A stretch of DNA of 48,130 nt from positions 1 to 48,130 of the forward strand of contig DASZWD010000003.1 of NCBI GenBank assembly GCA_035546775.1, given 5' to 3'. The DNA is from Acidimicrobiales bacterium. GTDB lineage: Bacteria > Actinomycetota > Acidimicrobiia > Acidimicrobiales > JACCXE01. Under the pieces are notes generated by a model. That model made no database searches. It saw only the letters and a list, made by a program, of their open reading frames with translations, and was not told the origin of the DNA. Positions 1 to 14,650 of the stretch are shown here, piece after piece; positions within the stretch are counted from its first letter, which is position 1, and the number at the start of each line of letters is the position of its first letter. The position numbers were made by a program, and so were the translations under genes.

Positions 1-368
1 TCGGCGGCAGCACCGCCGCCGTCGCCACGGGCGTCGTCGTCGGTGCCACCGTGCTCGCCGTCAGCGTGTGCACGAAGTACCCGCTCGGCGTGTTCAAAGT
101 GCTGCCCTTCACGCTGCACTCGGCGGGCGACTATCTCGCCGCCACGCTGCTGCTCGGCTCCCCGTTCGTGTTGAAGTTCCACTCGACCGACACCGGTCTG
201 ACGGCGCTGTATCTCGGCGCCGGCGTTGCCGTCGTCCTCGTGAGCCTGATCACCAACTACCAGTACTCGGACGCCAACGCTGTCGTTCCCGTGCCGGCCC
301 CGGTGGTGCCCGTGCGCACGAGCACGCGACCGAACCGTCCGCTCAAGGCGCAGCGCCAAGCCTCGTAA
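1..368 (+). CDS. Small integral membrane protein, 5' truncated by window edge
   Basis: The reading frame is open from base 3 to a TAA at 366-368, so only the C-terminal ~121 residues are visible. They hold about three hydrophobic segments: one at the very start, one around SAGDYLAATLLLGSPFVL, and one around ALYLGAGVAVVLVSLIT. A short Pro/Val-rich and then basic cytoplasmic-looking tail follows. The GDYL...SP pattern weakly recalls SPW-repeat membrane proteins, but I would not assign that family. No function can be given. The gene converges on a TetR gene, with a hairpin between them. Confidence 0.6.
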   Translation, partial: GGSTAAVATGVVVGATVLAVSVCTKYPLGVFKVLPFTLHSAGDYLAATLLLGSPFVLKFHSTDTGLTALYLGAGVAVVLVSLITNYQYSDANAVVPVPAPVVPVRTSTRPNRPLKAQRQAS

Positions 369-386
369 GCCATCGACATCGGTCCC

Positions 387-436
387 GAACTGGCCCTGCT
401 CACGCCCCGCTCTGCGGTGTCGAGCGGGGCCAGTTC
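387..436. terminator. Hairpin between convergent genes, probable bidirectional terminator
   Basis: GAACTG at 387-392 and GCCCCGCTC at 404-412 pair with GAGCGGGGC at 422-430 and CAGTTC at 431-436. This gives a long GC-rich stem with an 11-nt bulge and a 9-nt loop. It lies in the 88-bp gap between the end of a plus-strand gene and the end of a minus-strand gene, where a shared terminator is expected. No long T run follows, so termination is inferred from position and stem strength. Confidence 0.5.
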
Positions 437-456
437 GCGTCAGGCGGCGGTCACAC

Positions 457-1065
457 TCACACGCTGCCGAACAGGAGACGGCACACCGCGTCGGCGTGCG
501 CTTCGATCACTTCGTCCGACGACACGTCGAGCTTGGTCAGCCGGCGCGCCTCAGGCGCCAGTACGAACATCGTCGGGCCGGCGCCGGTGAGGATGTAATA
601 CAGGTGCGCGGCGGCGATGTCGGGCACGGCACCTTCGGCCACGAGCCGCTCGAACAGCGCCACCGTCGACTCATAGATCGGGCGCACGTGGTGATCGACG
701 AGGTAGTCCATGCGCGGCCCGTCGGCTTTGGACTCCTGCATGATGATGCGGTGCAGCTGCGGGTTGCGCGCCGAGAACGTGATGAATTCGTGCACGGTCA
801 GCTTCGCCGCCGTGACGTCGTCGACGCCGCGCAGTCCGGCGGCGCGGTCGCGCAGCGTGGCGCGCAGCCGGGCGAACAACGCGTCGACCGCTTCCTGCCA
901 CAACTCCTCCTTCGAGCGGAAGTGGTAGTTCAGCAACGGCTGGGTGACGCCGGCGCGCGCTGCGATGTCGCGCGTGCTGGCGCCTTCGAAGGACCGCTCG
1001 GAGAACAGGTCGACAGCGGCGGCAAGGATGCGGTCGCGAGCGGGCGAAGTTGCCTCGTCGGGCAT
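457..1065 (-). CDS. TetR/AcrR-family transcriptional regulator
   Basis: A 202-residue protein of ordinary TetR length. Its N-terminal helix-turn-helix reads AAVDLFSERSFEGASTRDIA followed by ARAGVTQPLLNYHFRSKEEL, the classic TetR DNA-binding domain at about residues 10-60. The rest is the helical ligand/dimer domain. ATG at 1063-1065 starts the protein. The gene is divergent from the aromatic-cleavage operon at 1131, and the 65-bp gap carries two palindromes around a promoter. It is therefore probably the local repressor of that operon, answering to an aromatic substrate or CoA intermediate (inference). Confidence 0.93.
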   Translation of the reverse strand: MPDEATSPARDRILAAAVDLFSERSFEGASTRDIAARAGVTQPLLNYHFRSKEELWQEAVDALFARLRATLRDRAAGLRGVDDVTAAKLTVHEFITFSARNPQLHRIIMQESKADGPRMDYLVDHHVRPIYESTVALFERLVAEGAVPDIAAAHLYYILTGAGPTMFVLAPEARRLTKLDVSSDEVIEAHADAVCRLLFGSV

Positions 1066-1077
1066 CCGTCGAGCTTA

Positions 1078-1130
1078 ATCGACTGATCAGGCTCTTGACA
1101 AGATCCTGATCGACCGATCAATATCCTTCC
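1078..1130 (+). promoter_or_regulatory. Promoter with two palindromic operator candidates, leaderless start downstream
   Basis: A consensus -35 TTGACA lies at 1095-1100 and a -10-like CAATAT at 1119-1124, with an 18-bp spacer. This puts transcription start at about 1131, on the GTG codon itself. CTGATCAG (1083-1090) precedes the -35, and the perfect palindrome TGATCG-AC-CGATCA (1107-1120) overlaps spacer and -10. The outer arms ATCGACTGATCAGG (1078-1091) and CCTGATCGACCGAT (1105-1118) also mirror each other at 11 of 14 positions. A TetR dimer bound here would block RNA polymerase. Confidence 0.6.
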
Positions 1131-1990
1131 GTGAACAGTGCAATCGAACTCGGCTACCTCGTCATCGAGGTGCCCGACCCCGACATCCTCACTCCCGTGC
1201 TGCGCGACGTCGTCGGCCTGATGCCGGGTGACGCGCCGAACACGTGGCGCAACGACGACAAGGCGCAGCGCGTGATCGTGCAGGCCGGTGCGGCCAACGA
1301 CGCGGTGGCGGTTGGCATCGAAGCGGTCGACGCCGCGGCGTTCGACGCCGTCGTCGCCCGCACCGGCGCGACACCCGACGCGTCGCTCGCCGCGGCGCGC
1401 CGCGTCAAGCGGCTGGCGCGCACCCGTGCGCCGTGGGGTGTCGACGTCGAGATCGTGCTCGGCCTCGCCGACGCGCCGACGCCGTTCCACTCCGACTTCG
1501 CGCCCGGCGGCTTCCTGACCGACGGCGTCGGCTTCGGCCACGCGGTGTTCGCCACCGCCGCCTTCGACGAGTCGGTGGCGTTTCTGGTCGACGGGCTCGG
1601 CTTCGAGCAGTCGGACTGGCTCGAGATGGAACTGGCGCCGGGCATCGAACTCGAGGTGCGCTTCTTCCACTGCAACCCGCGTCACCACACGATCGCGCTG
1701 GCGAAGGCGCCCTTCGACCTGCCCCAGAAGCTGCACCACATGATGTTCGAGCTCAAGGAGCGCGACGACGTCGGCAAGGCGTTCGACCGCTTGTGGGCGA
1801 CCGACCTCGGCATCCCCAACGGGCTCGGCCGTCACCCCAACGACGGCATGTTCAGCTTCTACTTGCAGACGCCGGCGGGCTTCCAGATCGAAGTCGGTCA
1901 CGGCGCCCGCGTCGTGGGCGACGACTGGGACGACAACCACAAGTACAGCGCCATCAGCGCGTGGGGTCATCAGCCGCTGCGGCAGGCGTA

Positions 1991-1991
<1 letters not shown>
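1131..1991 (+). CDS. Type I extradiol ring-cleavage dioxygenase (VOC fold)
   Basis: A 286-residue two-module VOC protein of the BphC/HsaC/MhpB-like type I extradiol family, which cleaves catecholic rings meta to the hydroxyls using Fe(II). The C-terminal module keeps the metal triad: His137 in GFGHAVF, a His at 202/203 in LHHMMFE, and Glu254 in FQIEVGHG. The second-shell acid/base residues are also visible (His185/186 in NPRHHT, Tyr244 in FSFYLQT), so it should be active. The start is GTG at 1131. No Shine-Dalgarno precedes it, matching a leaderless message. The TAG stop overlaps the next gene's GTG by one base. The substrate is unknown; an aromatic acid or a steroid-type catechol is possible. 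Confidence 0.9.
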
Positions 1992-3459
<1,468 letters not shown>

Positions 3460-6325: not shown

Positions 6326-6380
6326 CCTCTTTCAGGTCCCTTTCTGGTTGAGACACACATCGGAATGTGATCGACAAAAG

Positions 6381-6413
6381 CATGGAGCCCGGGCCAACGG
6401 CCCGGGCTCCATG
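6381..6413 (-). terminator. Strong hairpin terminator between tetR and amt
   Basis: A perfect 15-bp stem, CATGGAGCCCGGGCC (6381-6395) against GGCCCGGGCTCCATG (6399-6413), with an AAC loop. On the minus strand the stem is followed by CTTTT, so it best serves as the intrinsic terminator of amt. It sits between convergent genes and can also stop tetR transcription. Confidence 0.8.
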
Positions 6414-6431
6414 CGTCGAGTGTGCGCTTGC

Positions 6432-7967
6432 CTAGATCGGAGTCGGTGTGTGCGGCTCCGACAGCGGTGCGGCCACGCCCGCCGCTACCAGTTCGGGCTC
6501 CTTGGCGAACTCGGGATAGGCGAGCGCGCCCATCTCCGGTTCGTCGAGACCGGCGATCTCGTCGGCCTCCTTCGAGCGGATGCCGCCGGGCATGATCATG
6601 TCCTGGAGCTTGAAGAAGACGAACGCCACCAATCCCATCACCACGATGATCGTGAGCGCGCCGGCGATCTGCGCCAGCAGCTGGCCACCGCCGTTGCCGC
6701 CGTACAGGATGCCGGTGACACCCTTCGTGTAGGTCGTCTTCGTGAGGTTCCAGCCGGCCCCGTAGGTGCCGTCGGAGAAGATGCCGACGCACAGGACACC
6801 GAAGATGCCGCAGACGCCGTGCACGGAAATGGCGCCGACCGGGTCGTCGATCTTGAGCTTCGTGTCGATGAAGACCACCGACTCGTAGCAGATAACTGCC
6901 GCGAGGCCACCGATGACGGCCGCCGCCCACGGTTGCACGAACGCGCATGGCGCGGTGATCGCGACCAGCCCGGCAAGCATGCCGTTGACCATCATCCCCG
7001 GGTCGGGCTTGCCGCCACGCATCATCGCCCAGAACATCGCGATGGTTGCGCCGAAGGCGGCAGCGATGGCCGTGTTGGCGGCGACGACCGTGAAGCGGAA
7101 GTCGGTAGCGGCGAAGGTCGACGCGGCGTTGAAGCCGAACCAACCGAACAGGAGGATGAAGCAGCCGAGCATGGCCATCGGGATGTGGTGACCGGCGAGC
7201 GTCTTCGACTTGCCGTTGACGTACTTACCGATGCGAGGGCCGAGCACGATGGCACCCGCAAGACCCGCAATGCCGCCCATGGCGTGCACGACGCCAGAGC
7301 CGGCGAAGTCGACGTAGCCGAAGCCCCAACCGCGGGAGTTGCCGAGCTGGCTCAGCCAACCGCCACCCCAGGTCCACGCGCCGAACAGCGGGTAGTAGAT
7401 CGCGCCGCAGAACAGACCCCAGCCGACGAAGGCGTTCCACTTCCAGCGCTCGGCCATGGCGCCGGTCGGGATGGTGGCGGTGGTGTCCATGAACGCCACC
7501 ATGTAGAGGAACATGGCTGCGACCGACACGTCATAGGCCTTGCCGCTCAGCGCCGCGCCGCCCCACCACAGGAACACGTGAGAGCCGGAGCCGATGAGCG
7601 CGTGGCCCACAGCGGTGTTCATGCCGAACACACCAAAGCTGAAGCCACCGAACATGAACGCGTAGCCCACGAGGAAGAAGGCGACGAAGCCGAGGCCGAA
7701 GATGGCGAAGTTGGTCGACACCACGTGCGCCGCGTGCTTGGCGCGGCAGAAACCGGTTTCGACCAGCGCAAAGCCGGCCTGCATGAAGATGACGAGTACG
7801 GCGCCGATGATCACCCAGAGCAGGTTGAGGCCCAGCGCCGTGTGGTCCGGACCGGCCTTGAGCGGCGTCTTGTCGACGGAGCTGGCCCAGGCCGATGCGC
7901 TGGAGGCGAGTACGAGTGCGGCGGTGAGCAAGGCGCCCAAGGCTCCCTTGCTTCGGAGTCGTCGCAT
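6432..7967 (-). CDS. amt: Ammonium channel/transporter Amt
   Basis: A 511-residue Amt/Mep/Rh-family channel. A cleavable signal-like N-terminus ends in SSASAWA (about residue 27), as in actinobacterial Amt proteins. Eleven membrane segments follow. The pore twin histidines are in place: SGVVHAMGGIAG (His168 equivalent) and ISVHGVCGIFG (His318 equivalent). The cytoplasmic tail is long and acidic. A ribosome site AAAGGAAA lies just upstream of the ATG at 7965-7967. The promoter region contains a double GlnR-like box, so nitrogen-limitation control is likely. The upstream same-strand gene is an antiporter carrying GlnD-like and ACT domains. No glnK lies beside amt in this window. Confidence 0.95.
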   Translation of the reverse strand: MRRLRSKGALGALLTAALVLASSASAWASSVDKTPLKAGPDHTALGLNLLWVIIGAVLVIFMQAGFALVETGFCRAKHAAHVVSTNFAIFGLGFVAFFLVGYAFMFGGFSFGVFGMNTAVGHALIGSGSHVFLWWGGAALSGKAYDVSVAAMFLYMVAFMDTTATIPTGAMAERWKWNAFVGWGLFCGAIYYPLFGAWTWGGGWLSQLGNSRGWGFGYVDFAGSGVVHAMGGIAGLAGAIVLGPRIGKYVNGKSKTLAGHHIPMAMLGCFILLFGWFGFNAASTFAATDFRFTVVAANTAIAAAFGATIAMFWAMMRGGKPDPGMMVNGMLAGLVAITAPCAFVQPWAAAVIGGLAAVICYESVVFIDTKLKIDDPVGAISVHGVCGIFGVLCVGIFSDGTYGAGWNLTKTTYTKGVTGILYGGNGGGQLLAQIAGALTIIVVMGLVAFVFFKLQDMIMPGGIRSKEADEIAGLDEPEMGALAYPEFAKEPELVAAGVAAPLSEPHTPTPI

Positions 7968-8015
7968 GTGTTTCCTTTCGAAAGAGGTCAGGTCAAGGTT
8001 CGCTACGAGGCCTCA

Positions 8016-8030
8016 TTGCCCCGTTGGCAA
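8016..8030 (-). other. Small inverted repeat in the amt leader
   Basis: TTGCC (8016-8020) and GGCAA (8026-8030) are inverted around a 5-nt centre between the GlnR-like box and the amt start. It could form a weak 5-bp leader hairpin. Nothing else identifies it, and I assign no function. Confidence 0.25.
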
Positions 8031-8044
8031 CCTACGAAGCTGAC

Positions 8045-8082
8045 GTTTCTCTTTCGTCTCCGAATTGTTTCAATCGCGTAGC
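8045..8082 (-). promoter_or_regulatory. Double GlnR-like box upstream of amt
   Basis: Read on the minus strand, the element is GCTAC-n6-GAAAC-n6-GAGAC-n6-GAAAC, from 8082 down to 8045. The actinobacterial GlnR consensus is GTnAC-n6-GAAAC repeated with a 6-nt gap. All three spacers match exactly, both b-sites are perfect, and each a-site deviates only at its second base. It lies about 80-115 bp upstream of the amt ATG, as expected for GlnR activation of amtB. I found this by eye. Confidence 0.7.
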
Positions 8083-8108
8083 GAAACGGTGCGCGACCGG
8101 TCGCCTCG

Positions 8109-10790
8109 CTAGTGCCGGCGGGCGAAGCGCTTCGACGGGTGCGCCCCGCCAAGCGTCTGCGTCAGGTTCTGCTTGACGGTTTCTGACAGCTTGCGTCCGC
8201 GACCGTCGGTCAACTCGAAACGGTCCGTGGCAAGCGTCCCGTCGCCGCTGATCACCGCCGAGCGAACGTCGATGCCGCAGCTCGTGAACGCGGCCGCGAG
8301 TTGATGCAGCAGGCCGGCGCGATCGGGGGCCTCGATATCGCAGATCGTCGTCCACGGCGAGGCCGCATCGTCGAAGCTGACGCGTACGCCCTCGACGGGT
8401 GTTGGCCGCGGCGGCGAACCGAGGGCGGCGCTGATCGCCCGTTCGAGGGTCTTCGTGTCGGGGCTGACTCCGGTGCGCACCGTGAAGGTTTCGATGACCC
8501 CGCCATCGGACCAGGAAGCGGCCGACGCGTGCGCGACGTCGATGCCGTGGCTGGCGAGGACGCCGGTCACCGCGGCGAGAAAACCGGGCGCGTCACGCCC
8601 GGCCACATCGATGACGAGCGACTCGGGAGAGTCGTATGTCGAGCGCACCCGAACCGTGCGGCGCAACGGGACGGGCTCGACGAGGCGTGCGTGGCGCAAC
8701 AACACGTCGGGGGGATGTGACAACAGCCATGTTCGTGGTCCGGTCGCGATGCGCTGGGCGACGTCGGGTTCGCGTGCCGCCAGCGCCACCGCGGCATTGC
8801 GGCGCTGGTCAAGAGCCGTCCGGGCCTCGCTGCCCGACAGCTCGGGGTGCGACAGCACCGCCTGGATGCGGTCGTGCAAGTCGAGCAGGCGACCTCGGAC
8901 AACTCCCTCGATTCCGCCTTCGGCCAGCGTGAGCAACAGGAGGGCAGTGGCGCGTTCGGAACGCGCGATATGGGTCGCGAGCGCGAGGACACGGGCCTCT
9001 TCCAGAGCGTCGGCGCGGCGCGCCGCGGCGCGCAACAGGTCCCGCTCGCCGACCAGCAGGCAGATTTCCTCCTCGGCCGAGCGCCCGAGGTTGAGACGGC
9101 GAACCAGCGCTTCACCGACGTCCACGGGCGCGGCGTCGGGTCCGGCGGCGTCGAGAATCAGCAACGCCAACATCAGCCACTCTGGCTTTTCCAAACGCGC
9201 GTACGCCTCGGTCGCCACCGGGTCGTCTTCGACGACACCGCGCAGCGAATCGATCAGTGTCCAGCGCAGTACGCCCGCAGGATCCAGTTCCGCGGGGTTG
9301 GCGCGTCGGCGGCGCAGCGCGTCGGCCAGTTCAGGCAGCATCGTGGCGAGCACGCCGGTGACCTCGAGGAAGCGCCACGAGCGCGGCGTGCCGGTGCGCA
9401 GGAGGTCGAGCAGTTCGTCGGCAGCCGCCACGTCCCACTGGACGCCCTCCTCGTGCGCCAACGCGCTTGCCATGTCGATCAGCGAGGCGCTGGGACGAGC
9501 CTCGGCGCCGAGCCGGGCGCCGCGCAACGCCAACTGCAAGGCGACGTCCGGTGGCGGCGAGCCATGCACGTTGATGACCCCGTCGTCGACGGTCATCCAC
9601 CGCCCGCCCTCGGGCAGTACAACTTCGCGCGGGCTGCTGTGTTGTTGCACTCGGCGCAGCCGTGCCTTGAGCATCGACGGCGTGATCAGCGTGGTCGCCA
9701 GCACTACGATGAGGAGCGCGGCGTAGAGGTCGTCGCTGAGGATGCCGTTGCGCAGGCCGATTCCGGCGAAGATCAGGCCGACTTCGCCGCGGGGCAGCAT
9801 GCCGATACCGATGAGGAGTTTGTCCCCCGGCGACCCGAACGCGCCGACGGCGGCGAGGAGTTTGCCGATCGCGGCGACGGCCAGCAGCGCGAGCGCCAGC
9901 CCGATGACCGAAGGTTTCGCCATCGCCTTGAGGTCCGCGTCGATGCCGATCTGCAGAAAGAACACCGGGATGAACAGGTGGCCAACCGGCGTGAGCTCGC
10001 GTCGAATGCGTTCGACGTTGTTGCTGCGCGACAGCGCCACTCCGGCGACGAAGGCCCCGACGATGGGCGCCAAGCCTGCGCCCTGGGCCAATTTGGCGAA
10101 GGTCAGCGTGAAGGCGAACACGATTGCCACGAGCGTCCCGGGGCTGCGGGCGAAGCGTTGCAGCAGGCGGACGCCCGGGGGAGCGACGCGGATGCCGACG
10201 TACGCGGCGGCGACGAGAAAGCCGACGGCGATGGCGATCACGCCCGCGACCGATGCGAGTGAGACCGAACCCTCCCCGACGAGCCGCACGACAACCGTGA
10301 GAATGACCAGGCCCAGCACGTCGTCGGCGACGGCGGCGCCGAGCACCGTTCGTGCCTCGACGGTCGCCAGCGCCCGCAAGTCGCCGAAGACGCGGGCGGT
10401 GATCCCGACGCTGGTTGCGGTGAGGGCGGCACCGACGAAGACGGCGGTGTTACCGCCGTGCCCGAGAGCCGCGGCGACGCCCGCGCCGGCGGCAAAGGGG
10501 ATCGCCACGCCCACGAACGCGACCGCGATCGAGGCGCGCCCGACGGCCGCGAGTTCGCCCAAATCCATTTCGAGCCCGACGTCGAGCAGCAGCAACAGCA
10601 CGCCCAGCTCGCCCAGCACCGTGAGAATCTCGTCGTGACCGACGAGATTCAGCGCCGACGGTCCGATCAGAACACCGGCGAGGATTTCGGCCACGACCGC
10701 GGGCACGCCGATGCGCTCGGCCAACTCCGCGGCCACCTTGGCCGCCACCAACACGACCAAGATGTGAAAGAGAACGTCCCCGAGATTCAT
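8109..10790 (-). CDS. NapA-type cation/proton antiporter fused to GlnD-like HD-degenerate and ACT domains
   Basis: An 893-residue protein starting at ATG 10788-10790, where MNLGDVLFHILVVL opens the first helix. Residues 1-380 are a CPA2 antiporter with the ion-binding DD of NapA-type exchangers (AAVADDVLGL, Asp156/157) and MLPRGEVGLIF (331-341). Residues ~395-700 resemble the central part of PII uridylyltransferase GlnD, including FLEVTGVLATMLPEL (474-487) and a helical region where GlnD has its HD phosphohydrolase. The HDIGK-type motif here reads LLILDAAGPD (543-552), so the metal-binding His-Asp pair is lost. Two ACT domains follow: 723-795 (VAGRDAPGFLAAVTGVLASHGIDV) and 814-880 (IEAPDRAGLLHQLAAAFTSCGIDV). 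The GlnD nucleotidyltransferase domain is absent. The next gene downstream on the strand is amt. I infer an ion exchanger gated by a nitrogen-status sensor. An earlier in-frame ATG at 10898 would add 36 non-conserved residues. Confidence 0.88.
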   Translation of the reverse strand: MNLGDVLFHILVVLVAAKVAAELAERIGVPAVVAEILAGVLIGPSALNLVGHDEILTVLGELGVLLLLLDVGLEMDLGELAAVGRASIAVAFVGVAIPFAAGAGVAAALGHGGNTAVFVGAALTATSVGITARVFGDLRALATVEARTVLGAAVADDVLGLVILTVVVRLVGEGSVSLASVAGVIAIAVGFLVAAAYVGIRVAPPGVRLLQRFARSPGTLVAIVFAFTLTFAKLAQGAGLAPIVGAFVAGVALSRSNNVERIRRELTPVGHLFIPVFFLQIGIDADLKAMAKPSVIGLALALLAVAAIGKLLAAVGAFGSPGDKLLIGIGMLPRGEVGLIFAGIGLRNGILSDDLYAALLIVVLATTLITPSMLKARLRRVQQHSSPREVVLPEGGRWMTVDDGVINVHGSPPPDVALQLALRGARLGAEARPSASLIDMASALAHEEGVQWDVAAADELLDLLRTGTPRSWRFLEVTGVLATMLPELADALRRRRANPAELDPAGVLRWTLIDSLRGVVEDDPVATEAYARLEKPEWLMLALLILDAAGPDAAPVDVGEALVRRLNLGRSAEEEICLLVGERDLLRAAARRADALEEARVLALATHIARSERATALLLLTLAEGGIEGVVRGRLLDLHDRIQAVLSHPELSGSEARTALDQRRNAAVALAAREPDVAQRIATGPRTWLLSHPPDVLLRHARLVEPVPLRRTVRVRSTYDSPESLVIDVAGRDAPGFLAAVTGVLASHGIDVAHASAASWSDGGVIETFTVRTGVSPDTKTLERAISAALGSPPRPTPVEGVRVSFDDAASPWTTICDIEAPDRAGLLHQLAAAFTSCGIDVRSAVISGDGTLATDRFELTDGRGRKLSETVKQNLTQTLGGAHPSKRFARRH

Positions 10791-10945: not shown

Positions 10946-13900
10946 ATGCACGTTGCTCGGCCATTGGGCTCGGCGCAAAAGGCAGTCATCGGCGTGGCCG
11001 CGACGCTCGTCGCGCTGCTGGCCGCGGCGGCGCTGCTGCCCAAGGGGCTGCCGTTCGGCGTGCTGCTGTACGGGCTCGTGCTCGGCGCGTTGTCGTCGTT
11101 GACGGCGATGGGTCTCGTGATCGTGTACCGCTCGGCGCGCATCATCAACTTCGCGCAGGCCGAAATCGGTGGGCTGGCGGCCTCCGCGGCGGTGATCGTC
11201 GTCGTGGCGCAGCATCACTCGTACTGGTTGGCGTTGCCGGTGGGTTTGGCGGTCGCGGTGGCGACGGGCGCCCTCGTCGACATCCTCGTCATCCGGCGGT
11301 TGTTCAACACGCCGCGCCTGATCGTGACCGTCGCCACGATCGGCCTGGCGCAGGTGCTCGGCGCGGCGGAGCTGGCGCTACCCAACGCGTTCAGTCACAA
11401 CCTGCAGCCCTTCACCACCTTCACCACGCCCTTCACGTTCACGCACCGCATCAACCCGTTCCTCTTCGACGGCAACGATCTCGTCGCCGCCGTCGCCGTG
11501 GTCGTCGCCCTCGGCTTGCTGGCGCTGTTCTTCGGCCGCTCGCTGATCGGCGTGGCCATCCGTGGCGCCGCCGACTCAGGCGATCGCGCCGAACTCCTCG
11601 GTATCCCGGTGCGGCGGCTGTCGACGGTCACCTGGATGGTGGCGGCCGCCCTGTCGGGCATCGGCGCCATGCTCAGCGCCCCGGTGCTCGGCCCGCAGCT
11701 CGGCGTGATCGCGGGCCCCATCGCCCTGCTGGCGCCGTTGACCGCCGCGATCCTCGCCCGCATGGAGAAGCTGACCGTGGCGTTCTTCGCGTCGCTGGCG
11801 ATCGGCGTGTTCGAGCAGGCCGTGTACTGGTCCTACCCGCGGGCGACGACGGTCGACGTGGCGCTGTTCGCCATCGTGCTCGTCGGCATGCTGCGCCAGC
11901 GCCGCCAACTGTCGCGGACCTCTGACAGCGGCCTCGGCGGCTACGTCGCCCTCAAAGAAGTCCGCCGCATTCCCGACGCGTTACGCCGACTCCCGGAGGT
12001 GAAGATCGCGACGCGGCTTATGGGTGCGCTGCTGCTCGCCGCGGTGGTGATCGTGCCGCTCGTGGTCAACGACTCGCGCCGCACGCTGCTCGCCTACGTC
12101 GCCATCTTCGGGATCCTCGCCGTCTCCTTGGTCGTGCTCACCGGGTGGTCGGGCCAGATCAGCCTCGGGCAGTTCGCCTTCGCCGGCGTGGGCGCCGCGG
12201 CCACGGCGAGCTTGTACGTGTATGCCCACGTCGACTTGCTGGTGTGCCTGATCGCCGCCGCGCTCGCCGGCGCCGTCGCCGCCGCCATCGTCGGCATCCC
12301 GGCAATCCGCCTGCCGGGGTTGTACCTGGCGGCGGCCACGATGACCTTCGCGGTGCCGGTGTCGACGTTCCTGTTGAACTCGACGTACTTCCCGCGCCTC
12401 GCGCCGGCGCGCATCGTGCGCCCGGTGCTGCTGCGTCGCTTCGACCTCAACTCGGCGCTCGTATTCTGCTGGTTCTGCGCCGGCATATTGGCGCTGTGTC
12501 TCTACCTGGCGCACAACTACCGGCGCAGCCGCGCCGGGCGCGTGGCGCTGGCGGTGCGCGACAACGAGCGCGGCGCGGCGGCGTTCGCCGTCAGCCCGGT
12601 GCGGGTGCGCCTCGTGGCCTTCGCGTTCGCCGGCGCGCTCGCCGGCGTCGGCGGCGGCCTGTACGCCATCGCCCTCAAGGGCATCGGCTTTTCCGGATTC
12701 AACCCCGAACTGTCGTTCCAGGTCTTCGCCATGGTCGTGGTCGGCGGGCTCGGCAGCCTCACCGGTGGCGTGCTCGGTGCGTTCTACGTGTACGGCGCCC
12801 AGTTCTTCCTGCACGGCGCCCTGCAACTCCTGGCGACCGGTGCCGGCATTCTGTTCGTGGTTCTCGTGCTGCCGGGCGGTCTCGCCGATCTGCTCTATCG
12901 CGGCCGCGACTACCTCTTGCGACGGGTCGCGGCGCGCCACGACCTGTCGGTGCCGAGTCTCGCCGAGACCGCCGCCTTCGCCACCGACGACGCGGCGGAC
13001 GAACCGACGGCGCCGGTTCCGGTCGTTACTGCGACTGCGGGCGACGCGGTGCTGCAGCTCGTCGACGTCGAAGCGTCCTACGGGTCGGTGCCCGTCCTGT
13101 TCGGCGTCAACCTCGAAGTGAACGACGGCGAAATCGTCGGCCTGCTCGGCACGAACGGCGCGGGCAAGTCGACGTCGCTGCGCGTCGCGTCGGGGTTGCT
13201 CCCGGCCCGGAAGGGTCGCGTGCTCTACCGCGGCGAGGACATCACGACGCTGAAGCCCGTGGAACGCGTCAAGGCCGGCTTGGCGATGGTGCCGAGCGGG
13301 CGCAGCATTTTCCCGTCGCTGACCGTCGCCGAGAACCTGCGCCTCGGCGGCTGGTTGTTGCGCCGCGATCACGCCGGCCTGGCGGCCGCCACCGAGCGGG
13401 CCCTCACGATCTTCCCGCGGCTGCGCGAGCGGCTCGACACGCTCGCCGGATCGCTGTCGGGTGGTGAGCAGCAGATGCTCACGATCGCGCAGACGCTGTA
13501 CTGCCAGCCGAAGGTGTTGATGATCGACGAGCTGTCCCTCGGCCTGTCGCCGTCGGTGGTGGGTGAGTTGCTCGGCGTCGTGCGCGACCTCGCGGCCAGC
13601 GGGGTCACCGTCGTCGTCGTGGAGCAATCGCTCAACGTGGCGACGTCGGTCGCCGACCGGTCCGTGTTCATGGAACGCGGCCAGGTGCGTTTCAGCGGCA
13701 AGACCGCCGAGTTGGCCAACCGCGACGACCTGCTGCGCTCCGTGTTCCTCGGCAACCGCAAGAGTCCGGCCCGCGCCAAGCGAGCGGCGCCGCGCACCAC
13801 CGGCGTTGCGCCCCGTTTCGAAGTCACCGAGGTGAGCCGCACCTTCGGCGGCGTGCGCGCCCTGTCCGACGTTTCGCTCGCCGCCTATCCCGGCGAGATC

Positions 13901-14650
13901 CTCGGCATCATCGGTGCGAACGGCGCGGGCAAGACCACGCTGTTCGACGTGTGCTCGGGCTTCACCCCGCCGACCACCGGACGGGTCGAACTCGGCGGCG
14001 TCGACGTGACCGACCTGCCGGCGCACGTGCGCGCCGACCTCGGCCTCGGCCGCGTGTTCCAGGACGCGCGCCTGTTCCCGTCGCTGCCGGTGCGCGAGAC
14101 GATCGCGGTGGCCTACGAACGCCACGTCGAGACGCGCGACCCGCTGCTGAGCATGTTCCGCACCGGCGCCGTGGTCGACTCCGAAGCCGACGTGGCGCAC
14201 GGTGTCGCGGCGCTCATCGAACGGCTGAACCTCGAGCGTTACGCCGATGCCTTCGTCTCCGAACTGTCCACCGGCACCCGTCGCATCGTCGAACTCGCCT
14301 GCGTGCTGGCGCACGACCCGTCGGTGTTGTTGCTCGACGAACCCACTTCGGGCATCGCCCAGCGCGAGAGCGAAGCGCTCGGCCACGTGCTCGCCGACCT
14401 GCGCGACGAAACCGGTGCCACGTTCGTGATCATCGAACACGACGTGCCGCTGGTGGCATCGCTCGCCGATCGCATGATCTGCCTGCACCTCGGCGAGGTC
14501 ATCGCCCAAGGAACGCCGGCGGAAGTGCTCGCCAATCCCGACGTCGTCGCCGCCTACCTCGGCGAGGACCAGGCCGCGATCGCCCGCTCGAACACCGCTC
14601 GACCCAAAACCCGGACGCGACGCTCCCGCGCGCTGACGCCCACCAACTGA
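10946..14650 (+). CDS. Single-polypeptide Liv-type ABC importer: LivH-LivM-LivF-LivG fusion
   Basis: A 1234-residue protein with no internal stop holds four normally separate subunits. LivH-like permease (1-~345) has SARIINFAQAEIGGLA. LivM-like permease (~350-660) has LTGWSGQISLGQFAFAGVGA. The first ATPase (~697-935) is LivF-like, with Walker A GTNGAGKST (735-743), VPSGRSIFPSLTVAENL, LSGGEQQ and Walker B VLMIDELSLGL. The second ATPase (~952-1205) is LivG-like, with GANGAGKTT (990-998), FQDARLFPSLPVRE, signature ELSTGTRR and VLLLDEPTSG. Start ATG 10946 follows an AGGGGGGAA site. One chain thus carries a whole membrane and motor unit, two transmembrane domains and two nucleotide-binding domains. 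Its stop overlaps the ribosome site of the following binding-protein gene. The substrate could be a branched-chain amino acid or any small amphipathic acid. Confidence 0.92.
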   Translation: MHVARPLGSAQKAVIGVAATLVALLAAAALLPKGLPFGVLLYGLVLGALSSLTAMGLVIVYRSARIINFAQAEIGGLAASAAVIVVVAQHHSYWLALPVGLAVAVATGALVDILVIRRLFNTPRLIVTVATIGLAQVLGAAELALPNAFSHNLQPFTTFTTPFTFTHRINPFLFDGNDLVAAVAVVVALGLLALFFGRSLIGVAIRGAADSGDRAELLGIPVRRLSTVTWMVAAALSGIGAMLSAPVLGPQLGVIAGPIALLAPLTAAILARMEKLTVAFFASLAIGVFEQAVYWSYPRATTVDVALFAIVLVGMLRQRRQLSRTSDSGLGGYVALKEVRRIPDALRRLPEVKIATRLMGALLLAAVVIVPLVVNDSRRTLLAYVAIFGILAVSLVVLTGWSGQISLGQFAFAGVGAAATASLYVYAHVDLLVCLIAAALAGAVAAAIVGIPAIRLPGLYLAAATMTFAVPVSTFLLNSTYFPRLAPARIVRPVLLRRFDLNSALVFCWFCAGILALCLYLAHNYRRSRAGRVALAVRDNERGAAAFAVSPVRVRLVAFAFAGALAGVGGGLYAIALKGIGFSGFNPELSFQVFAMVVVGGLGSLTGGVLGAFYVYGAQFFLHGALQLLATGAGILFVVLVLPGGLADLLYRGRDYLLRRVAARHDLSVPSLAETAAFATDDAADEPTAPVPVVTATAGDAVLQLVDVEASYGSVPVLFGVNLEVNDGEIVGLLGTNGAGKSTSLRVASGLLPARKGRVLYRGEDITTLKPVERVKAGLAMVPSGRSIFPSLTVAENLRLGGWLLRRDHAGLAAATERALTIFPRLRERLDTLAGSLSGGEQQMLTIAQTLYCQPKVLMIDELSLGLSPSVVGELLGVVRDLAASGVTVVVVEQSLNVATSVADRSVFMERGQVRFSGKTAELANRDDLLRSVFLGNRKSPARAKRAAPRTTGVAPRFEVTEVSRTFGGVRALSDVSLAAYPGEILGIIGANGAGKTTLFDVCSGFTPPTTGRVELGGVDVTDLPAHVRADLGLGRVFQDARLFPSLPVRETIAVAYERHVETRDPLLSMFRTGAVVDSEADVAHGVAALIERLNLERYADAFVSELSTGTRRIVELACVLAHDPSVLLLDEPTSGIAQRESEALGHVLADLRDETGATFVIIEHDVPLVASLADRMICLHLGEVIAQGTPAEVLANPDVVAAYLGEDQAAIARSNTARPKTRTRRSRALTPTN

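Follow-up and report, generated by a model that had tools for sequence, protein, structure and literature searches.

The window analysed here is the whole stretch of 48,130 nucleotides at positions 1 to 48,130 of contig DASZWD010000003.1, from a bacterium of the order Acidimicrobiales. It contains a gene that joins a NapA-type antiporter of the CPA2 family to a long tail homologous to GlnD, the PII uridylyltransferase (Table 1). A sequence-only reading of this DNA had described one continuous frame without giving its strand; the frame is uninterrupted over 893 residues on the minus strand, and the same interval (8109-10790) translated on the plus strand contains stops. The neighboring gene encodes an Amt ammonium transporter, which matches PF00909 (E 8e-101) and TIGR00836 (E 4e-101, 339 bits against a cut-off of 343.3). 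Since a terminator consensus scan found no terminator-like site between the fusion gene and amt, and a strong hairpin follows amt, the two genes likely constitute a two-gene transcript. The scan returned 2 sites where 2.6 are expected, so support for the hairpin as a terminator comes only from the strength of its stem. Divergent from the fusion gene, positions 10946-14647 of the plus strand hold one 1234-aa frame with two BPD_transp_2 and two ABC ATPase domains, the first ATPase exceeding the UrtE cut-off; by its domain content this frame encodes a complete ABC importer, of the branched-chain amino acid or urea type, as a single polypeptide.

Table 1. Coordinates of the fusion gene, its domains and its neighbors in the window, and of related hydrolase-linked ACT pairs at their own loci
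Feature	Position	Strand	Remarks
Fusion gene, antiporter plus GlnD tail	8109..10790	-	893 aa, uninterrupted frame
Ends of fusion gene	ATG 10788-10790, stop 8109-8111	-	From translation; start agrees with orthologue starts
NapA-type CPA2 antiporter domain, residues 1-382	9645..10790	-	Pfam match, NapA alignment, 30-orthologue comparison
Linker and beta-hairpin, residues 383-412	9555..9644	-	GlnD homology starts here (GlnD 'LRDEELHV' strand)
Helical body, residues 413-500	9291..9554	-	Counterpart of GlnD region between nucleotidyltransferase and HD
HD-derived helical domain, residues 501-650	8841..9290	-	Metal ligands lost; HD dipeptide is L-D at 546-547
Helices joining HD to ACT1, residues 651-712	8655..8840	-	Orthologue alignment, model
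ACT domain 1, residues 714-790	8421..8651	-	Pfam, profile match, model, fold comparison
ACT domain 2, residues 800-882	8145..8393	-	NCBIfam/profile match, model, fold comparison
Amt ammonium transporter, 511 aa	6432..7967	-	Same strand, 141 bp downstream of fusion
Perfect 16-pair hairpin with T-rich tail	6380..6414	-	Just past Amt; likely terminator of two-gene unit
Hydrolase-linked ACT pairs	L210:3838-5477; L211:3018-4721; L212:1703-2956	+	Own branch in ACT tree

The membrane domain of the fusion was assigned by its matches to Pfam Na_H_Exchanger (PF00999; residues 16-376, E 5.7e-65) and to its closest solved structure, the electrogenic NapA of T. thermophilus (residues 5-382, E 6e-60). Both matches agree with the earlier description of a NapA-type CPA2 exchanger with a DD motif at 156/157, and the position of that motif is exact. 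A residue-by-residue alignment shows that the NapA core is retained, namely A125-T126-S127-V128 in the unwound helix, D156, D157, K310 and P333-R334-G335-E336, with D156, D157, K310, R334 and E336 identical in 30 of 30 orthologues. Masrati et al. have defined an eight-position CPA motif in which the ATSV...DD...K type is tied to electrogenic, not K+-type, CPA2s, and K+-selective CPA2s show an S-A(-T) pattern (PMC6181914). The fusion carries the electrogenic form of this motif, with Asp at positions 6 and 7, Lys at position 8 and no Glu at position 5; A152 occupies the position four before D156. Based on the likeness to NapA and on this motif scheme, Na+ is the predicted ion and the domain is most likely an electrogenic Na+/H+ exchanger. 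NapA (4bwz/5bz2) has the whole membrane domain in common with the fusion, together with the ion-binding DD, the TM10 Lys and the TM11 PRGE, but at 386 aa it stops after the membrane domain whereas the fusion carries about 510 more residues of GlnD-derived tail. An RCK/TrkA_N tail was considered and rejected, as no such Pfam match appears up to E 10 and KefC aligns over residues 7-386 only.

Homology of the tail to GlnD is evident from NCBIfam TIGR01693 (GlnD), with residues 415-880 aligning to positions 337-845 of the 850-position model at E 9.6e-32. The bulk of this score comes from the ACT pair, as residues 710-893 alone match PRK03381 (E 1e-20) and TIGR01693 (E 3e-20). The middle of the window protein alone (residues 390-712) matches TIGR01693 with E 1e-8; the middles of two divergent orthologues, each tested singly, give no significant match to this model. 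A profile-profile comparison of the fusion middle with the GlnD middle, from which the ACT domains were excluded, gives a probability of 99.7% and E 1.3e-25 over 284 columns, which excludes a coincidental similarity between the middle domain and GlnD. Additionally, the fusion-middle profile retrieves genuine GlnDs from a related family with scores of 124-135 bits, and an alignment with nine GlnDs is collinear from the strand that follows the nucleotidyltransferase through to the C-terminus (residues ~390-885 of the fusion). The sequence-only reading, which saw the back half of GlnD in this tail in the correct order and would have been undone had residues 395-700 lacked a structural match to GlnD, is upheld by the agreement of these three comparisons, the middle matching by profile-profile. 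It was also correct that the nucleotidyltransferase half is missing, for the match to TIGR01693 begins only at model position 337 and the antiporter fills the N-terminal side, and that two ACT domains are present, on which Pfam, NCBIfam and the structural model concur. The TIGR01693 score of the fusion is 110 bits, below the family cut-off of 519. With a homologous tail and a score under the cut-off, the fusion is thus derived from GlnD and is not itself a GlnD. The body, HD-derived domain and two ACT domains stand in identical order in both proteins; the fusion differs from GlnD in lacking the nucleotidyltransferase, in the loss of its HD ligands and in being joined to a membrane antiporter.

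The HD site was compared residue by residue between the two groups. All nine GlnDs in the comparison keep the second His of HNxxH, the TVD Asp, the DRH His, the HD dipeptide and the TEAD Asp; in the fusions these ligands are essentially absent save for the Asp of HD. The His of the dipeptide is replaced in 27 of 30 orthologues (by Leu in the window protein), and the Asp is retained in 29 of 30. The earlier statement that the His-Asp pair is gone therefore stands for the His and fails for the Asp, while its description of the site as dead is sound, since the His ligands and the distal Asp are lost across the orthologues. An isolated HD dipeptide does occur in three loci (L066, L067 and L071), in which the other ligands are missing. 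Judged by these residues, the HD site of the fusion cannot carry out catalysis in the manner of GlnD, and the protein would be unable to modify PII because the active sites for doing so are missing. The dead HD domain may still be able to bind PII. In the adjoining helical body, the orthologue alignment shows R470, W472 and R473 to be invariant.

Predicted structures are in line with these assignments. AlphaFold2 models of the tail, built from a 30-row alignment, have a mean pLDDT of 90.4 and a pTM of 0.80, and the full-length fusion has a pLDDT of 86.8. In a fold comparison of the body and HD part (model residues 9-267), relatives of class II tRNA nucleotidyltransferases rank first, with the A-adding tRNA nucleotidyltransferase 3wfq giving a Z score of 17.0 and an rmsd of 4.2 over 242 residues; as this part consists mostly of helices, and helical models can reach Z 13-14 even between unrelated proteins, the fold match serves only to support the sequence result. 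A sequence search of the PDB found no GlnD structure, and the best weak PDB matches of the GlnD from this genome include 3wfp-type enzymes, which is consistent with a shared fold and is not proof of one. The fold of the ACT pair matches aspartate kinase (Z 12.5), threonine dehydratase (Z 8-10) and the arginine sensor CASTOR1 (Z 7-8), and in this confident model the pair resembles amino-acid sensors.

Full-length orthologues of the fusion, at 41-55% identity, occur in many independent genomes from many families of the order and class. Orthologues were gathered by an alignment-based search of genome contigs, so locus totals are lower bounds, and at least 55 distinct fusion loci remain after removal of duplicates. 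This number excludes a sequencing or assembly error that joined two genes, an outcome that the sequence-only reading had named as fatal to its claim. Among the matches listed, nearly all lie in Acidimicrobiia; named records with the fusion are from Acidimicrobiia, Acidimicrobiales, Acidimicrobiaceae and Ilumatobacteraceae, and a few MAG titles look misnamed. Two full-length fusions were found in another family of the phylum (f101). In a sample of the order, 18 of 198 genomes contain the fusion or a piece of it cut by a contig end, and a search of plasmids did not find it.

In a quick tree built from the membrane domains, all of the fusions fall in one clade (98% SH-aLRT), from which it appears that the fusion arose once. 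Within this clade are a few members scored as antiporter only, some of which are frameshifted or cut by contig ends. Also nested within it, as one clade of its own (100%), are 593-residue variants (L086-L093, L159 and L160) that keep a degenerate middle domain and lack the ACT domains. Their tail of ~200 residues retains the GlnD middle domain as a shortened relic; that of L086, the one protein of this type scanned, has no Pfam or NCBIfam match. Absence of the ACT domains in this clade is best read as a loss, and several of its members adjoin Amt and PII. On this comparison of genes, ACT sensing is not indispensable to whatever role the pairing of antiporter and Amt has, because a clade with Amt and PII as neighbors lacks the ACT domains. 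The genome of the window, which encodes three PII proteins, also has a canonical GlnD of 785 residues with an intact HD site and flanking PII genes, so the fusion is an addition and replacement of GlnD by the fusion is ruled out for this genome. GlnD is encoded in an amtB-glnK-glnD operon in actinobacteria (PMC4285133; PMC3173338). The tail module appears to have been derived once from a copy of GlnD, probably within the amt-glnK-glnD neighborhood common in actinobacteria, and this same neighborhood is also seen around the fusion in relatives. At one locus (L083) a canonical glnD with an intact HD site (2-1531, plus strand) lies directly upstream of the antiporter (1932-3365, plus strand), and the contig ends before the tail.

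Gene neighborhoods were counted for 26 distinct fusion loci and 19 unfused antiporters, each flanked by 2.5 kb or more of sequence in both directions. In 19 of the 26 fusion loci an Amt gene occurs within 2 kb, as compared to none of the 19 unfused antiporters. PII (glnK), detected with a small profile made from the PII proteins of the window's genome, lies within 5 kb in 10 of 26 and glnD within 5 kb in 2 of 26; in seven of the 26, none of Amt, PII and GlnD was found nearby. Where the orientation of fusion and amt was scored, 32 pairs are on the same strand and 3 on opposite strands. The order fusion-amt-glnK is found in L056, L072 and L085, with glnD added in L033 and L069, and in L037 amt lies on one side of the fusion and glnD on the other. 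Amt does occur close to two unfused antiporters at loci with shorter flanks (L094 and L119), which indicates that pairing of the antiporter with Amt may predate the fusion. A separate arrangement occurs at L035 (4500-10551), where amt genes on both sides of the fusion, 36% and 70% identical to the Amt of the window, are followed by PII.

We consider it on balance probable that the fusion is a nitrogen-status-gated, most likely electrogenic Na+/H+ antiporter that probably senses glutamine through its ACT pair. A GlnD remnant without catalysis, with its ACT pair kept and placed on an exchanger beside Amt, is most simply read as a glutamine gauge. The strongest functional clue is the adjacent Amt gene together with the PII genes of relatives, neither of which the sequence-only reading took up. 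Glutamine is favored as the ligand on the precedent of GlnD, which contains a site for glutamine binding and whose ACT domains are regarded as the sensor (PMC4285133; PMC3173338). As we picture it, the ACT pair would bind an amino acid whose level reflects nitrogen supply, by analogy with GlnD most likely glutamine, and the helical block that contains the dead HD site would relay the bound state to the membrane domain. The relayed state would then switch cation/proton exchange on or off in concert with the ammonium uptake mediated by the Amt encoded alongside. A physiological reason for coupling Na+/H+ exchange to nitrogen can be argued. Our guess as to direction is that high glutamine would favor exchange, with proton entry offsetting alkalinisation by ammonia, and that exchange would be restrained while Amt uptake and glutamine synthetase load the cell with acid.

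Close association with Amt also fits a different transport activity. Transport of NH4+ and K+ is known for some CPA2 antiporters (AmhT), and the fusion could be an exchanger of NH4+ (or K+) for H+ that releases Amt-imported ammonium when glutamine is high, which would make the two proteins an uptake/overflow pair. We regard this as quite improbable, given that the selectivity motif is identical to that of NapA (ATSV, DD, K) and not the S-A(-T) type (PMC6181914); selectivity for NH4+ itself is not readable from sequence. The tail could alternatively be mainly structural, serving dimerisation or stability of the antiporter with an ACT pair that has ceased to bind a ligand. Dimerisation is a common role of ACT pairs, the ACT domains have been lost in one clade, and in 9 of 30 orthologues Ala replaces the ACT1 glycine G736. 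The constraint that remains on the ACT domains (D762, F769, P812 and W813 invariant in 30 of 30, G826 kept in 29 of 30) and the persistent linkage to nitrogen genes nevertheless make this the least credible of the readings, and a very improbable one.

The main rival to glutamine gating is docking of PII on the dead HD domain. According to this alternative, the domain has been kept as a platform on which PII (GlnK) sets the activity of the antiporter, much as GlnK does for Amt, with the ACT domains merely tuning it. The HD domain of GlnD removes the nucleotidyl group from PII (PMC4285133), and the HD-derived domain has been retained in the fusions despite the loss of its catalytic residues. Furthermore, PII is near the fusion at the frequency given above, and the ACT-less 593-aa variants keep their shortened middle and have PII nearby in five of five well-flanked loci. 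Since that clade keeps a remnant of the HD domain, the description of the module in the sequence-only reading as a pure ligand-sensing gate is not the sole one available. However, conservation within the tail is lowest in the HD-derived segment, where mean pairwise identity is 33% as compared to 43% for the body and 40-41% for the ACT domains; this is unlike a docking face for a conserved PII. No PII gene was found near the fusion in the window, and PII next to Amt is usual anyway. We thus judge PII docking unlikely, if less so than the two alternatives above, and retain glutamine gating through the ACT pair as the preferred reading.

CPA2 antiporters known to be ligand-gated mainly carry RCK tails. 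For example, KefC and KefB are ligand-gated K+ efflux systems with a KTN/RCK tail that, by analogy, are alike in plan to the fusion in combining a CPA2 exchanger with a C-terminal tail, predicted in the fusion to be a ligand-binding gate. They differ in having an RCK tail, a Kef-type ion site and a glutathione context, whereas the fusion has a GlnD/ACT tail, a DD motif and a nitrogen context. The proposed control by nitrogen status of a membrane transporter encoded beside amt also has an analogue in GlnK-AmtB, although there a separate PII trimer blocks Amt and in the fusion the sensor is covalently part of the antiporter. Plant ACR proteins such as ACR11 contain GlnD-type ACT repeats without the GlnD catalytic domains and are tied to nitrogen assimilation (PMC3173338). 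Like the fusion they have ACT repeats freed from catalytic domains, but they are soluble and have neither an HD-derived block nor a transporter. A search of open-access literature found no account of an antiporter whose tail is of the GlnD or ACT kind, which within that scope lends limited support to the unfamiliarity of the architecture noted earlier.

The fusions constitute a conserved antiporter family with a tail taken from the central nitrogen sensor GlnD, located beside ammonium-transport genes. An antiporter with such a tail next to amt suggests that these bacteria tune ion exchange directly to nitrogen supply. To our knowledge, a direct link between nitrogen status and an ion or proton gradient is not known from elsewhere. 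If the gating is real, nitrogen status would directly control sodium/proton exchange, and the tail would be a natural construct for the sensing half of GlnD, free of the enzymatic half.

Stand-alone ACT-pair proteins related to the antiporter tail are also present. One in the same genome (L050:6844-7479, minus strand) is ~40% identical to the tail, and its gene overlaps the stop codon of a molybdopterin oxidoreductase next to nirB (partner frames 7479-9998 and 11217-13697, minus strand). The closest models to this oxidoreductase are Fdh-alpha and the assimilatory NasA/NasC, so the ACT pair, near an apparent nitrate-reductase-like gene and nirB, again seems to be in a nitrogen setting. A second example, in genome G187 (L049), is an ACT-pair protein at 563-1183 (minus strand) beside a molybdopterin-oxidoreductase-type gene at 1231-2634 (minus strand). 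In a tree of ACT domains, both of these stand-alone pairs group among the antiporter tails and not among the GlnDs. More broadly, and tentatively, it is possible that in Acidimicrobiia the dead sensor module derived from GlnD has become a nitrogen gauge that is portable between proteins: joined to a Na+/H+ antiporter, and acting together with Amt and perhaps GlnK, it would allow glutamine to directly control membrane ion exchange, and its stand-alone ACT-pair relatives would act likewise on nitrate assimilation. Other GlnD-like ACT pairs are linked to hydrolases (Table 1). In the genome of the window, a second GlnD-like ACT pair follows an alpha/beta-hydrolase-like gene, the two genes overlapping, and in genome G068 the same ACT pair and alpha/beta-hydrolase-like protein are fused into one protein of 568 aa, encoded near apparent urease genes.
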